DNA of 39,164 bases, taken from contig JAHHHO010000049.1 of the NCBI GenBank assembly GCA_019359315.1, positions 1 to 39,164 on the forward strand, read 5' to 3'. Made by a program: the position numbers and the translations under genes. Below the pieces are notes generated by a model that saw only the letters and a list, made by a program, of their open reading frames with translations, was not told where the DNA came from and did not search any database. The DNA comes from Myxacorys californica WJT36-NPBG1. Its GTDB lineage: Bacteria; Cyanobacteriota; Cyanobacteriia; Leptolyngbyales; Leptolyngbyaceae. Each line of letters starts with the position of its first letter. The first letter of the stretch is position 1. This document shows positions 15,716 to 19,486 of the stretch, in pieces.

Positions 15716-15976
15716 TCACAGATAGACTTCTTTTCGATGCCTGACTCGAACAATCGTGATTAGCTTCTCTGTGCGACTGAAATCATACAAAACTCGATAG
15801 TCGCCAACCCTCAGCTTAAAGAAGTCTGACAAGTCGCCTGTTAGAGGCTGCGGTTTAATCTGGTCAAAATTCTGACAGAGCCAATTGATTTTGGTAAGGA
15901 TGCGTTCTCGGATTGTCTCGTCGAGATCATCGAGGTCGCTGATTGCTTCAGGTTCAAATTCAACCGTGTAACTCAT
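15716..15976 (-). CDS. RelE/ParE-family toxin
   Basis: This 86-residue protein shows the RelE/ParE fold: YTVEFEPEAISDLDDLDETI, a helical hairpin, the strand pair KLRVGDYRVLYDF and the C-terminal IVRVRHRKEVY with the basic residues expected of an mRNA interferase. Toxins of this family cut mRNA at the ribosome or poison gyrase. ATG 15976 overlaps the antitoxin stop by 4 bp (ATGA), the usual coupling; an ATG 6 bp earlier is the alternative. Antitoxin-first order and coupling support a functional module. Confidence 0.85.
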   Translation of the reverse strand: MSYTVEFEPEAISDLDDLDETIRERILTKINWLCQNFDQIKPQPLTGDLSDFFKLRVGDYRVLYDFSRTEKLITIVRVRHRKEVYL

Positions 15977-16191
15977 TGCCAAGTCAGCCCAAATCGCTTA
16001 GCGACTTCTTCCGCCGGGATTGCCCGCCCACCGTTTGCTCGGCGCTGACGGGATTCGCGCAGTTGCTGTTTCACTTCGGGTCGAATTTCTTTGCCTTCAT
16101 CGGGATCTTCAAGAAATTCTTCCAAGATTTCTGTTACGGTTTCCCGGATTAATGCTTTTAGTTCATCGGTGGTTAGGTCTTTTACTTGCAT
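15973..16191 (-). CDS. Antitoxin of the RelE-type module
   Basis: This 72-residue acidic protein has an N-terminal helix MQVKDLTTDELKALIRETV, an acidic middle (EEFLEDPDEGKE) and a basic C-terminal part ending AEEVAKRFGLTWQ. Small, charged, upstream and overlapping the toxin gene by 4 bp, it fits the antitoxin role of neutralising the toxin and probably repressing the operon. The exact family is not recognised. Confidence 0.75.
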   Translation of the reverse strand: MQVKDLTTDELKALIRETVTEILEEFLEDPDEGKEIRPEVKQQLRESRQRRANGGRAIPAEEVAKRFGLTWQ

Positions 16192-16251: not shown

Positions 16252-17913
16252 TTATCCTTCCATGTTGGCAAAGTGGTCTTGCAAGAGTTTGTGGATGAAG
16301 CGGTAGCGACCGCCGATGCGCTGGAGAAACATGCGCTCTGTGGCGTAGTTGAGGAAGCGGGCATAGTTCCAGGGGATGGCGCGGTTGAGGAAGAGGACGA
16401 GACGCAGGGAAAGGTGCTGAGCGCAAGCTTGGCCGCCGCCTTCAGTAAAGCTAAACGAAATAAGACAAGCAAGAGAACTTGCTAAGACTCTAGCTGTTTC
16501 GCCCTTGCTCAAAAAATGACTGATGAAATGAGATAAAAAGCCTTGAACTAGAAAAGCGATTAAGAGAGAAATGATGATTACAGTGACTACATTTTTAGCA
16601 GAATTAATTATTCCCTGATTGGGACGAGTCCGCATTGTAATTTCAGCTTTTGAAGCACCAATCAGCCCAAAAATCAGCCCAAAAATCAGCCCAACAATCA
16701 GCCCAACAATCAATTGCTTGATAATTTCTCGTCTTGCTTCGCTCGACATCGAAATTTCGATGGCTTCAATTGCTTCAATACGATCCGGCTCAACAATCAG
16801 CCCAGAAATCAGCCCAAAAATCGGCCCAACAATCAGCCCAAAAATCAGCCCAAAAATCGGCCCAACAATCAGCCCAAAAATCAAGCGATAAGACCACTTC
16901 TGACCGGAACTTCTCAACCAAGTGGGCTGCATTTTCTCAATTAGAAGCTCTGTCTCGTCATCGTGCTTTAGCTGTTTTGCCAACCTCACCAACCATTGAC
17001 GAGTTTGCTTTGCAGTGGGCTCTTTCTTGCCAATATACAAATGGCTCTTGACTTCCCGATGCAGAATCTTCTCAACATAGGCATCTAGCAAAAACGTCAG
17101 CCGTTCCTCAGTAGACTCAAGCGACTGCCACTGTTCAGCAAGTTCCGCTCGGTAAGCCACCAACGTAATGCTTAACAATAGAGGCTGCCGCACAAGATCA
17201 AGCAATTCCGCATCTGCGCCCAAAACTTGCCAAAGCGCAAGCCGATCAACATTTCTTAGATAACTCTCAATCTGCTCATCGCTCAGTTCTTGCAGATAGA
17301 TCGCGCCGTTGAGCGTCAGTTTTTCGTCATACACTTCGTATTCCTCTTGGCGGCTGCACACAACGATCGCTCTCGGTTGCTTGGCACTACTCAGAAACTG
17401 ATTGATTGCAGTAACACAGGCAGGCTGAAGATCTGTCCGAACTTCATCCAAGCCATCCAATAAAGGCAAAAGCTTTTGGTCTTCGAGCCACTTTGCCCCA
17501 ATCTTTGAGCCGATGCCTTTCGTCTTGAGTTCTGCGATCGCCCAATCTTTGATACTGAGTTTCGGATCTTTCCAAGACGACAAGTTCAGCAAAAACGGCA
17601 TCGGTTCACTTGGATCGTCTAGCGCTTTTCGGACTAACGCTCTGGCAAGCTCCAGTAAGGTTGTCGTCTTCCCCGCGCCTGGCTTTCCCAAAATCAACAG
17701 CTTGCCCGCAATGTCTGCGCGATCGAAAACTTCCAAAATCGCCGTTTCCGGTGGAATGGTTTGGGTGATTTGTCCGCTTTTGACCTCCATATCCCAGAGC
17801 CGATGCACCTGTTCGGGTTGCGCTTGCTTGCCCAAGTTGATCAAAATTTGATTGTGCAGTGACGTTGCTAATCGCCCCTCGACTTCTGTTTCAAAGGCTT
17901 TCAGCCAGTTCAT
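16252..17913 (-). CDS. NACHT-domain NTPase with repeat-built C-terminal membrane region
   Basis: This 553-residue STAND-type ATPase has Walker A GKPGAGKTT (76-84), Walker B LLPLLDGLDEV (148-158), sensor-like VVCSRQEEYE (184-193) and a helical winged region (about 205-330). The C-terminal ~210 residues are membrane-associated: helices at about 345-374 and 401-420 are made of GLIF/GLIV/GPIF tetrapeptides encoded by 12-bp repeats, followed by a helix at ~441-462 and a C-terminal helical domain ending HKLLQDHFANMEG. Bacterial NACHT proteins include anti-phage defence switches, and cyanobacteria carry many of unknown role. The first start is ATG 17913, but the frame stays open 120 bp upstream and encodes a conserved-looking motif (see separate entry). 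The small companion gene lies just upstream. Confidence 0.85.
   Translation of the reverse strand: MNWLKAFETEVEGRLATSLHNQILINLGKQAQPEQVHRLWDMEVKSGQITQTIPPETAILEVFDRADIAGKLLILGKPGAGKTTTLLELARALVRKALDDPSEPMPFLLNLSSWKDPKLSIKDWAIAELKTKGIGSKIGAKWLEDQKLLPLLDGLDEVRTDLQPACVTAINQFLSSAKQPRAIVVCSRQEEYEVYDEKLTLNGAIYLQELSDEQIESYLRNVDRLALWQVLGADAELLDLVRQPLLLSITLVAYRAELAEQWQSLESTEERLTFLLDAYVEKILHREVKSHLYIGKKEPTAKQTRQWLVRLAKQLKHDDETELLIEKMQPTWLRSSGQKWSYRLIFGLIVGPIFGLIFGLIVGPIFGLISGLIVEPDRIEAIEAIEISMSSEARREIIKQLIVGLIVGLIFGLIFGLIGASKAEITMRTRPNQGIINSAKNVVTVIIISLLIAFLVQGFLSHFISHFLSKGETARVLASSLACLISFSFTEGGGQACAQHLSLRLVLFLNRAIPWNYARFLNYATERMFLQRIGGRYRFIHKLLQDHFANMEG
16660..16707 (+). repeat. 12-bp coding tandem repeat, array 1 (4 units)
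   Basis: Four units of AATCAGCCCAA(A/C) on the plus strand encode Gly-Leu-Ile-Phe/Val on the minus strand, in the second repeat-built helix of the NACHT protein (residues ~402-419). Confidence 0.85.
16795..16878 (+). repeat. 12-bp coding tandem repeat, array 2 (7 units)
   Basis: Seven units of AATC(A/G)GCCCA(A/G)(A/C) encode the first repeat-built membrane segment of the NACHT protein (residues ~345-374). The 12-bp unit keeps frame, so copy number can change by slippage without breaking the gene. Confidence 0.85.
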
Positions 17914-18033
17914 TTCTCGATCGGGGCGTTGCCGTGATCGAGAAATGTTTACATCTCCATAGACATTCTCAAAATTGAACTGATCGTCACCCTCATTGTG
18001 ATACTTCCGAGACAGACTTAAGACCCACCGATT
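17914..18033 (-). other. Open NACHT frame upstream of its first start, encoding a second copy of the companion's C-terminal motif
   Basis: Continuing the NACHT frame upstream of ATG 17913 gives 40 codons to an in-frame TAG with no ATG, GTG or TTG. The segment includes YHNEGDDQFNFENVYGDVNI. The companion protein upstream ends YINQGRDQINIENITGNPRI, so 12 of 20 positions agree. The conserved-looking peptide in the NACHT frame but without a start suggests an older longer NACHT N-terminus, a frameshift between the two genes (the NACHT frame is -1 to the companion frame), or a sequence error. No standard slippery heptamer was found at the junction. Confidence 0.6.
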
Positions 18034-18404
18034 CTAGGGTTGCCTGTGATGTTCTCAATGTTAATCTGATCACGTCCCTGGTTGATGTACTGTCGCTCCG
18101 ACGTAGTCTGAATATTCGTAATCTGCTCTGCAAGCTGCTGCAACGTCTGCGCGAAAGAGACATCATCCATCTCATCGTCTAAATACACAGACAGCTTATT
18201 CAGCGCTTCGGGTGATCCCTCTTGTTCAACTTTTGCGATCGCTTCTTCCGCCTTCGGATTCTTACCCTTAAACCGCGCTTTAATCGCCGTTCGCAGTTGG
18301 TCGATCACGCCTCCCACGGCTTTCTTCGCGACTTCTCCCGCTCCAGATTTGATGAATTCATCAAAAGCAAGTTTCGCGATCGCGGCTCCAGTCAACTCAA
18401 ACAC
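18018..18404 (-). CDS. Small companion protein of the NACHT gene (128 aa)
   Basis: This 128-residue protein has an N-terminal helical region (MFELTGAAIAKLAFDEFIKS, then basic helices around IKARFKGKNPKAEEAIAKVE), a middle acidic helix and a C-terminal motif NQGRDQINIENITGN. Similar small proteins, and similar N-terminal domains fused to ATPases, occur in cyanobacterial NACHT and related loci; I recognise the pattern but know no function. Its stop lies 104 bp before the NACHT ATG. Most likely co-transcribed and an adaptor or sensor for the NACHT ATPase, which is inference. Confidence 0.7.
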   Translation of the reverse strand: MFELTGAAIAKLAFDEFIKSGAGEVAKKAVGGVIDQLRTAIKARFKGKNPKAEEAIAKVEQEGSPEALNKLSVYLDDEMDDVSFAQTLQQLAEQITNIQTTSERQYINQGRDQINIENITGNPRIGGS

Positions 18405-18582
18405 AAGTTACAAGCAGAAAATAACATTTTCGTTGTAACTTATTTCTACTAAATCAATGTGCTAGTTTCCGAAAGTTTACAAAATCATGCTGGTAATGGT
18501 GACAATCAATGCAATTAGTGCGGAGCGCAACTTTGAAGGAACGTTAGAACTTACGAAGCCTTCATCACCAACGCCCTTTCTG

Positions 18583-18729
18583 TCGTCGCGAATGTCGTAG
18601 CCGTCGTCACGAAGCTCGCAGTTGTCGTAACGAAGCTCGTAACGTTCCTCGTGAATCCCGCAACATTCGTGACGAACATCATAGCCGTCGTCACGAACAT
18701 CGTAGTTGTCGTAACGAAGCTCGTAATTT
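18583..18729. repeat. Seven imperfect 21-bp tandem repeats
   Basis: Seven consecutive 21-bp units run from 18583, consensus about TCGTCACGAAxxTCGTAGTTG; a degenerate eighth may precede at 18562. Being a multiple of three, the array is open on both strands: plus reads VVTKLVV/VVTNIVA heptads, minus reads SFVTTTT/MFVTTAM heptads. Neither frame has a good ribosome binding site or a full gene around it, so I annotate the repeat rather than a CDS. Cyanobacterial genomes contain similar FVTT-type heptad-coding arrays. Confidence 0.75.
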
Positions 18730-19045: not shown

Positions 19046-19486
19046 CTAGTCGATGAAGTCTCGAAGCATATCCAGTTTTTCCGCCGGATTATCTGAACTA
19101 ATTGGGCGATCGCCATCTACAGGGAGCGTTTTGCGAGTTTGAGTTTTATCCGCTGCGATCGGGCGATTGCCATCTTCGTGGACAACTTCTTTAATATCTA
19201 AATTGCTAGGATCAATGGGGCGATTGCCATCAATTCCCAGAGTTTTGTTAGCCTCTAATGTACTGGCTGTAATCGGACGACTACCATCTGCTTCAAGCGT
19301 GTCGCGCACTTCAATGTCATCAGCAACGACCGGACGATTGCCATCAATCGGCAAAACATACTCTACCTGAATATCACTCTCATCAATCGGACGATTGCCA
19401 TCTATCTGAAGCATTTTTGCATCTTTCTGATCGTCCTCTAAAGGAATGATGGTGATGTCATCTGGTTGATCCTGCTGTGTACTCAC
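19046..19486 (-). CDS. GNRP-repeat protein (six ~19-residue repeats)
   Basis: This 146-residue acidic protein is made almost wholly of six repeats of about 19 residues, each with a DGNRPI-type core (IDGNRPIDESD, IDGNRPVVADD, ADGSRPITAST, IDGNRPIDPSN, EDGNRPIAADK, VDGDRPISSDN). It ends EKLDMLRDFID. Cyanobacteria have a family of small proteins with GNRPI/GNRPV repeats and an acidic LMGYID-like tail, and this one fits; no function is established to my knowledge. No signal peptide or membrane segment. The repeated Asn-Arg-Pro turns suggest a small repeat fold. It stands alone, with 515 bp upstream. Confidence 0.7.
   Translation of the reverse strand: MSTQQDQPDDITIIPLEDDQKDAKMLQIDGNRPIDESDIQVEYVLPIDGNRPVVADDIEVRDTLEADGSRPITASTLEANKTLGIDGNRPIDPSNLDIKEVVHEDGNRPIAADKTQTRKTLPVDGDRPISSDNPAEKLDMLRDFID

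Follow-up and report, generated by a model that had tools for sequence, protein, structure and literature searches.

A stretch of 39,164 nucleotides from the cyanobacterium Myxacorys californica WJT36-NPBG1 (contig JAHHHO010000049.1, hereafter the window) carries a gene for a NACHT protein directly behind a small companion gene, and the C-terminal peptide of the companion recurs a short way downstream in the frame of the NACHT gene, ahead of its first canonical start codon. The locus thus raises the question of why a peptide should be repeated in DNA that appears to precede the gene, and where the NACHT gene begins. The features concerned are collected in Table 1.

Table 1. Coordinates of the features discussed, numbered as in the window unless a genome (G) and contig (C) are named.
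Feature	Position	Strand	Remarks
Bell-like companion (putative effector)	18018..18404	-	128-aa ORF; GTG start at 18404, TAA at 18020-18018
Effector-side motif YINQGRDQINIENITGN	18039..18089	-	codon-by-codon reading; followed by PRIGGS at the companion end
TAG, upstream bound of the NACHT frame	18034..18036	-	codon-by-codon reading
CTG where homologues have an ATG or GTG start	18013..18015	-	2 nt past the companion stop
Receptor-side motif YHNEGDDQFNFENVYGD	17953..18003	-	NACHT frame (frame 2 relative to the companion, equal to -1)
ATG, first canonical start codon of the NACHT frame	17911..17913	-	internal Met by comparison with 10 orthologues
NACHT receptor	16252..18015	-	587 aa if read from the CTG; Pfam NACHT passes the cut-off
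NACHT domain	17251..17697	-	residues 107-255 of the 587-aa reading; Pfam E 2.5e-10
Two arrays of 12- and 36-nt tandem repeats	16660..16883	-	GLIFGLI-type hydrophobic repeats, C-terminal half of the receptor
ParE-family toxin ORF and small upstream ORF overlapping it	15716-15982 and 15973-16191	-	Pfam E 2.9e-14 (ParE)
About seven imperfect 21-nt tandem repeat units	18580-18725		upstream of the companion gene
146-aa ORF of DGNRPI/DGSRPI/DGDRPI repeats	19046-19486	-	
Sister-class locus L242	G000:C103:9722-9769	-	stop and pseudoknot between small effector ORF and same-frame STAND ORF
Sister-class locus L252	G000:C26:31978-32026	-	stop and pseudoknot between small effector ORF and same-frame STAND ORF

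A peptide repeated in two frames

The companion tail aligns with the NACHT frame at a Smith-Waterman score of 62, a value never reached when the first 60 residues of that frame were shuffled 20,000 times (mean 22.1, sd 4.4, maximum 54); with the companion masked, the next best score of the tail against all six frames of the window is 34. The original prediction of a peptide repeated in two frames across the companion-NACHT junction is thus borne out, though the copies lie 86 nt apart from start to start rather than about 75 bp. An alignment of the two copies as DNA extends over a 20-nt core only, so the likeness is maintained in the protein, and a recent duplication of the DNA is ruled out as the origin of the repeat.

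Pairing of the motif across related loci

An alignment of 13 members of the companion family (A1), in which the GRD of the companion motif is invariant in all 13 rows, found matches in 93 of 388 genomes of the class Cyanobacteriia at E up to 1e-12. Six duplicates were removed before the count, one place (G047:C43) entering it twice as L073 and L101, and one of the 124 Bell loci lay too near a locus end, leaving 123 at which the companion tail was compared with the downstream ORFs. With the longest downstream ORF, own pairs had a mean motif score of 53.2 against 28.1 (sd 1.1) when tails and ORFs were re-paired, the maximum in 10,000 re-pairings being 32.5. Within the GRDQ class alone (n = 24) the own-pair mean was 67.1 against 49.9 (sd 2.3) and was reached in 0 of 5,000 re-pairings; within the GWQTKVEGG class 1 of 5,000 permutations reached it, and for two of the smaller classes (n = 5 and 9) the own-pair scores were barely above those of re-pairing within the same class, 227 and 231 of 5,000 permutations reaching the observed value. 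The motif thus covaries in a pair-specific manner: its types include GRDQINIEN, GWQTKVEGGTAYIGE, NYQTKTG..NTNFFGG and VNAVGE..VNFGD, and effector and receptor sides change type jointly, for example at L058, L066, L069, L080 and L083. When a score of at least 40 is counted as paired, a limit of our own choosing that 2.2% of cross-class pairings also reach, 80 of the 123 own pairs qualify with the longest ORF and 81 with the best frame; the other 43 related loci stay below this limit when scored against the longest downstream ORF.

A probable effector-receptor pair of the BASS/Bell type

The Pfam NACHT match (Table 1) marks the receptor as an NLR-type NTPase. For the companion, no Pfam or NCBIfam family exceeded its cut-off and PADLOC returned no match at all. 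Its AlphaFold model contains five helices between residues 6 and 108 (mean pLDDT 72), with pLDDT below 50 at residues 21-29, 103-123 and 125-128, and Foldseek found no PDB match to it below E 0.6. This predicted five-helix bundle with its low-confidence tail is compatible with a Bell domain.

Bacterial amyloid signalosomes of the BASS/Bell-NLR kind were reportedly described by Dyrka et al. in 2020 (J Mol Biol). Like the BASS/Bell-NLR pairs, as presented in PMC7889193, PMC8086366 and PMC12261475, the window combines a C-terminal motif on a small helical protein with a matching N-terminal motif on the adjacent NLR, again in a cyanobacterium; unlike in those pairs, the receptor motif of the window lies upstream of every canonical start codon, and the NLR side of the match depends here on use of the CTG. 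The layout also resembles that of the fungal pairs NWD2/HET-S and PNT1/HELLP (PMC7889193 and PMC7885112), in which an NLR and an adjacent execution protein have a common short motif at the same positions, although these belong to another kingdom and the likeness is one of layout.

Because the motif matches pair by pair, homologous receptors start just before it, a NACHT domain is present and the companion is a predicted helical bundle with a tail, the repeat is best read, from sequence and model, as the paired motif of a BASS/Bell-type effector-NLR pair. We infer a role in defence, with the companion as effector and the motif forming amyloid. Upon sensing a trigger, the NACHT protein would oligomerise, its N-terminal motifs would nucleate an amyloid fold, and the companion motif would be templated onto this receptor amyloid; the helical domain, once clustered, would act as the effector, probably on membranes, and cause cell death.

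Where the receptor gene begins

Below the TAG at 18036-18034 the NACHT frame stays open, and no ATG, GTG or TTG occurs in it until the ATG at 17913. The earlier claim that the NACHT copy lies upstream of any start codon therefore holds for these three codons, but it overlooked the CTG at 18015-18013, the one CTG of this frame ahead of 17913. In Phormidesmis priestleyi ULC007 (L011) the ATG of the NACHT gene directly follows the companion stop and the protein reads MSREYKNDGRDQIPIEHLTGNVYIG...RKRPDREVKWLKAF, in FACHB-63 (L025) the gene begins with GTG at the position of the CTG and reads VARRYDNQGRDQYNIEN...RKRPDQEMIWLKAF, and the window protein, when read from the CTG, is LSRKYHNEGDDQFNFENVYGDVNI...RQRPDREMNWLKAF. 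Across ten aligned orthologues the codon equivalent to CTG 18015 is ATG in nine and GTG in one, while the residue at the position of Met 17913 varies (V, L, M, L, L, Q, Q, Q, S, L; Met in one of the ten). The ATG at 17913 is thus an internal codon and 18015 the ancestral start. At least for its relatives, the suggestion that the NACHT protein began with the motif peptide is confirmed: instead of starting at the equivalent of 17913 and lacking the motif, L011 and L025 start upstream and include it.

The stop-start junction is conserved more widely. By our reading of the rows, 17 of the 20 other GRDQ-class pairs have an ATG or GTG 3-6 nt past the base with which the companion stop begins, the receptor start being further downstream in L069, L070 and L075; the CTG of the window, at +5 from the same base, is the sole CTG among the 21. 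Over all classes, 5 of the 81 motif-sharing pairs have no canonical start before the aligned motif, of which four reach an ATG 3-7 codons on; the window alone goes without a canonical start for 32 codons from where the motif starts. Such spacing recalls pairs expressed by coupled termination and reinitiation, as described in PMC10666635: in the 17 pairs just named the start falls 0-3 nt past the stop, and here, as with coupled genes, the partners are expected to form a complex. The commonest published arrangement is, however, a 4-nt overlap, in contrast to the short gap found here and, in the window, to a CTG in place of ATG or GTG. That the pair is of the BASS/Bell effector-NLR type and that its receptor ancestrally started at 18015 is, in our judgement, very probable; this confidence does not extend to use of the CTG.

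The CTG codon of the window

How the window receptor is now translated is less certain. Our guess, put forward tentatively, is that ribosomes which have just terminated 2 nt upstream initiate weakly at the CTG, since stop and start site are as closely spaced here as in coupled genes (PMC10666635). A lost start and a base error are its close rivals. It is possible, if somewhat doubtful, that a change of ATG to CTG abolished the motif-bearing receptor, leaving translation to proceed from ATG 17913 or to fail, with receptor and effector uncoupled. CUG is a very poor start codon for bacterial ribosomes and hardly used by bacteria (PMC9845219, PMC11497404); besides standing alone in its CTG among the GRDQ-class pairs, the window departs from the GRDQ of all 15 other receptors listed by carrying GDDQ in its receptor motif (two receptors not among these 15 also deviate, L095 with GGDQ and L075 with SRDQ). 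Private changes at codon positions 1 and 2 are proportionally more frequent in the N-terminal extension than in the core, without reaching significance (4/38 against 14/384; Fisher p 0.068), and at the residue level number 2/15 against 4/159. This excess is a weak hint of relaxed constraint, because two orthologues likewise have 2/15 private residues in the extension, with 13/168 in their cores, and the contrast stems from the low core rate of the window. Against a loss of the start, all 34 codons ahead of 17913 are free of stops, and in amino-acid identity the extension is about as close to three orthologues (0.57-0.60) as these are to one another (0.60-0.63), which would speak against a loss of long standing.

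Less probably, and in our view unlikely, a single-base error of sequencing or assembly at 18015 masks an ordinary ATG, from which the CTG differs by one substitution; the assembly is 99.98% complete and 0.02% contaminated, figures that say little about single bases. The one other genome of the genus (G001) gave no receptor or companion match at the limits used.

Fusion of companion and NACHT protein by -1 ribosomal frameshifting, raised in the original prediction, is very improbable and was rejected. The NACHT frame is indeed the -1 frame and the two open frames overlap by 16 nt, but this overlap contains no slippery heptamer by eye, the receptors of relatives have their own ATG or GTG, and relative frames 2, 0 and 1 occur in 13, 5 and 3 of the 21 GRDQ-class pairs (the window included) and in 35, 27 and 19 of the 81 pairs of all classes; since relatives differ in this way, frameshifting is no conserved mode of expression. 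That a duplicated fused gene left the upstream copy behind as an untranslated remnant, as the missing canonical start before the motif might suggest, is barely credible given that in homologues the motif lies directly behind an ATG or GTG and the copies match pair by pair over many loci, which is expected of homotypic signalling motifs, so that the fused ancestor once proposed is not needed.

The CTG has a practical side: gene callers that accept only ATG, GTG and TTG trim the motif from the receptor, so that the pair would be missed when predicted proteins are searched for amyloid signalling motifs. The CTG also makes the locus a natural test of the uncoupling of receptor and effector.

A sister class with the receptor in the effector frame

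At 41 of the 123 loci at least 100 open codons follow the companion stop directly in the same frame. Sixteen of these were chosen by eye for the lack of an early start, a low motif score and STAND-like sequence, the identity of the stop being no criterion; their motif scores are 18-28 and no ATG, GTG or TTG occurs for 16-56 codons, except at L157, where a GTG directly follows the stop. Together with L012 and L014, which are alike, they make 18 sister loci, in all of which the stop is TGA and about 45 nt past it are conserved at the nucleotide level. The pattern TTGACTNNAGNCGNCNGANNNGGANCGGNCAAAGT, allowing up to 3 mismatches, occurs at 27 places in 21 of the 388 genomes, against none for the reversed control; it was derived from the first sister loci, and 8 of the 27 matches are those loci again. 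An upstream ORF of at least 53 codons is present at all 27, of which the Bell profile recognised 11 clearly and one weakly and missed 15.

A covariance model of stem 1 of the RNA element described below, used alone, found 85 places in 66 of the 388 genomes, among them two in the genome of the window (contigs C103 and C26; Table 1) and one in its congener. Seventy-five of the matches were read (L226-L300), the other ten being among the 27 pattern matches, and the sets of 75 and 27 overlap. An in-frame stop followed by a continuous coding frame was found in 73 of the 75 (at least 100 codons; exceptions L259 and L265) and in 26 of the 27 pattern matches (more than 100 codons, L201 with 108 and L216 with 104), and 73 of the 75 have an upstream ORF of 50 codons or more (exceptions L249 with 18 and L295 with 20). 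At L202, L259 and L265 the pseudoknot is present and the receptor frame ends after 30, 82 and 19 codons; these may be decayed copies or sequence errors.

The effector stop in the 75 read loci is TGA in 71, TAG in 4 (L286, L291, L297 and L298) and TAA in none. Having been trained on TGA sequences, the model favours TGA, but with TAA one base and TAG two bases from TGA this bias does not explain the missing TAA. In the 81 motif-duplicating pairs the stop is TAG in 33, TGA in 27 and TAA in 21. By our count from the rows, a C follows the stop in 68 of the 75 sister loci. Where the start of the NTPase could be marked by a loose FxGR-type motif (57 of the 75), no ATG, GTG or TTG precedes the mark in 40 and one is present in 17. 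At L227 the Pfam NB-ARC match begins at residue 33 past the stop and the first canonical start lies at codon 56; at L228, where NB-ARC likewise begins at 33, there is a TTG ahead of it at codon 20.

A pseudoknot downstream of the stop

Stem 1 starts 8 nt past the stop, and stem 2 is formed by the loop of stem 1 with sequence after an A-rich stretch, giving an H-type pseudoknot. The structure alignment A3 comprises 36 of 37 unique sequences, L170 being omitted as its element could not be placed; 97.2% of the cells of stem 1 and 79.2% of those of stem 2 are paired, register variants of stem 2 being scored as unpaired. Covariation in A3 is 0.387, against 0.173 for shuffles (sd 0.018; 0 of 500 as high) and at most 0.137 for slid alignments; on one of five measures, pairs changed on both sides, 26 of 500 shuffles reached the observed value. 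On the 75 read loci, in an alignment fitted to stem 1 that includes the training loci of the model, stem 1 is 97.3% paired, with covariation of 0.499 against 0.184 (0 of 500). Stem 2, with its register left free in 74 unique sequences, scored 10.9 with its own partner against 9.3 (sd 0.35) on re-pairing, the maximum of 5,000 re-pairings being 10.5. Two covarying helices thus make up a conserved RNA structure 3' of the stop, with a putative stimulating role. Eight loci compared with Rfam gave no match at E up to 1.

Readthrough as the probable link between effector and receptor

The absence of UAA, the 8-nt spacer and the pseudoknot point to programmed readthrough, which the sister class probably uses, one copy of the motif serving both proteins. 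The receptor would be an extension of the effector, made by readthrough of a UGA-C (rarely UAG-C) stop that the H-type pseudoknot 8 nt downstream would stimulate, and a fixed minority of effector-motif-STAND fusion would seed the majority of free effector. If true, readthrough would explain how one copy of the motif reaches both proteins and how the ratio of receptor to effector is set. We know of no pseudoknot-linked readthrough cassette so widespread in cellular bacterial genes, and no counterpart was found in the open-licence literature covered here. It seems likely that the window and the sister class represent two translational solutions for placing one amyloid motif on both effector and receptor, the one duplicated and coupled from stop to start, the other single-copy and read through; of the two findings, that of the sister class is probably the more important.

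UAA is the stop codon with the least readthrough, according to PMC5289835. A C after the stop fits reports from yeast, whereas in E. coli an A after UGA favours misreading (PMC5289835 and PMC4178896), so the following C lends no clear support to readthrough in bacteria. The closest likeness is to the signal of murine leukaemia virus as outlined in PMC4178896, which also consists of an in-frame stop, an 8-nt spacer and a compact H-type pseudoknot; the sister class differs in being bacterial, in having mostly UGA-C instead of UAG, in its shorter stems and loop, in joining effector and STAND protein where the virus joins Gag and Pol, and in that its readthrough is predicted from sequence.

An alternative to readthrough is initiation at a near-cognate codon aided by the RNA structure, and in 17 of the 57 classifiable loci a downstream canonical codon (ATG in one, otherwise GTG or TTG) could serve. 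Insertion of selenocysteine at the UGA was considered and rejected: tRNA-Sec exceeded the cut-off of 47 bits in none of 12 genomes, the best match coming close at 45.7 bits (G196); weak matches occurred in all 12 genomes and in all 14 controls, 5 of which exceeded the cut-off.

Further observations

Many sister loci, L228, L231, L236, L241 and L251 among them, have upstream proteins with tails such as KGGTNTISGNTFNF or GVVNLG..QTNNISI, which resemble further signalling motifs; the upstream ORFs of L228 and L241 gave no Pfam match at E up to 0.01. At L301 (G230:C25:4500-7000) the order of the usual pair is reversed: an ORF of TPR-like repeats carries, as a C-terminal fusion, a Bell-like domain that has a GWQTKIEGGTAYIGE tail. 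A plasmid search gave two distant Acaryochloris records, and for the 146-aa repeat ORF (Table 1) Pfam returned no match at E up to 0.01. The ParE-family toxin ORF lies a short way behind the NACHT gene, and the small overlapping ORF, which belongs to no family, is perhaps its antitoxin. The 12- and 36-nt tandem repeats within the NACHT gene may differ in copy number from strain to strain.
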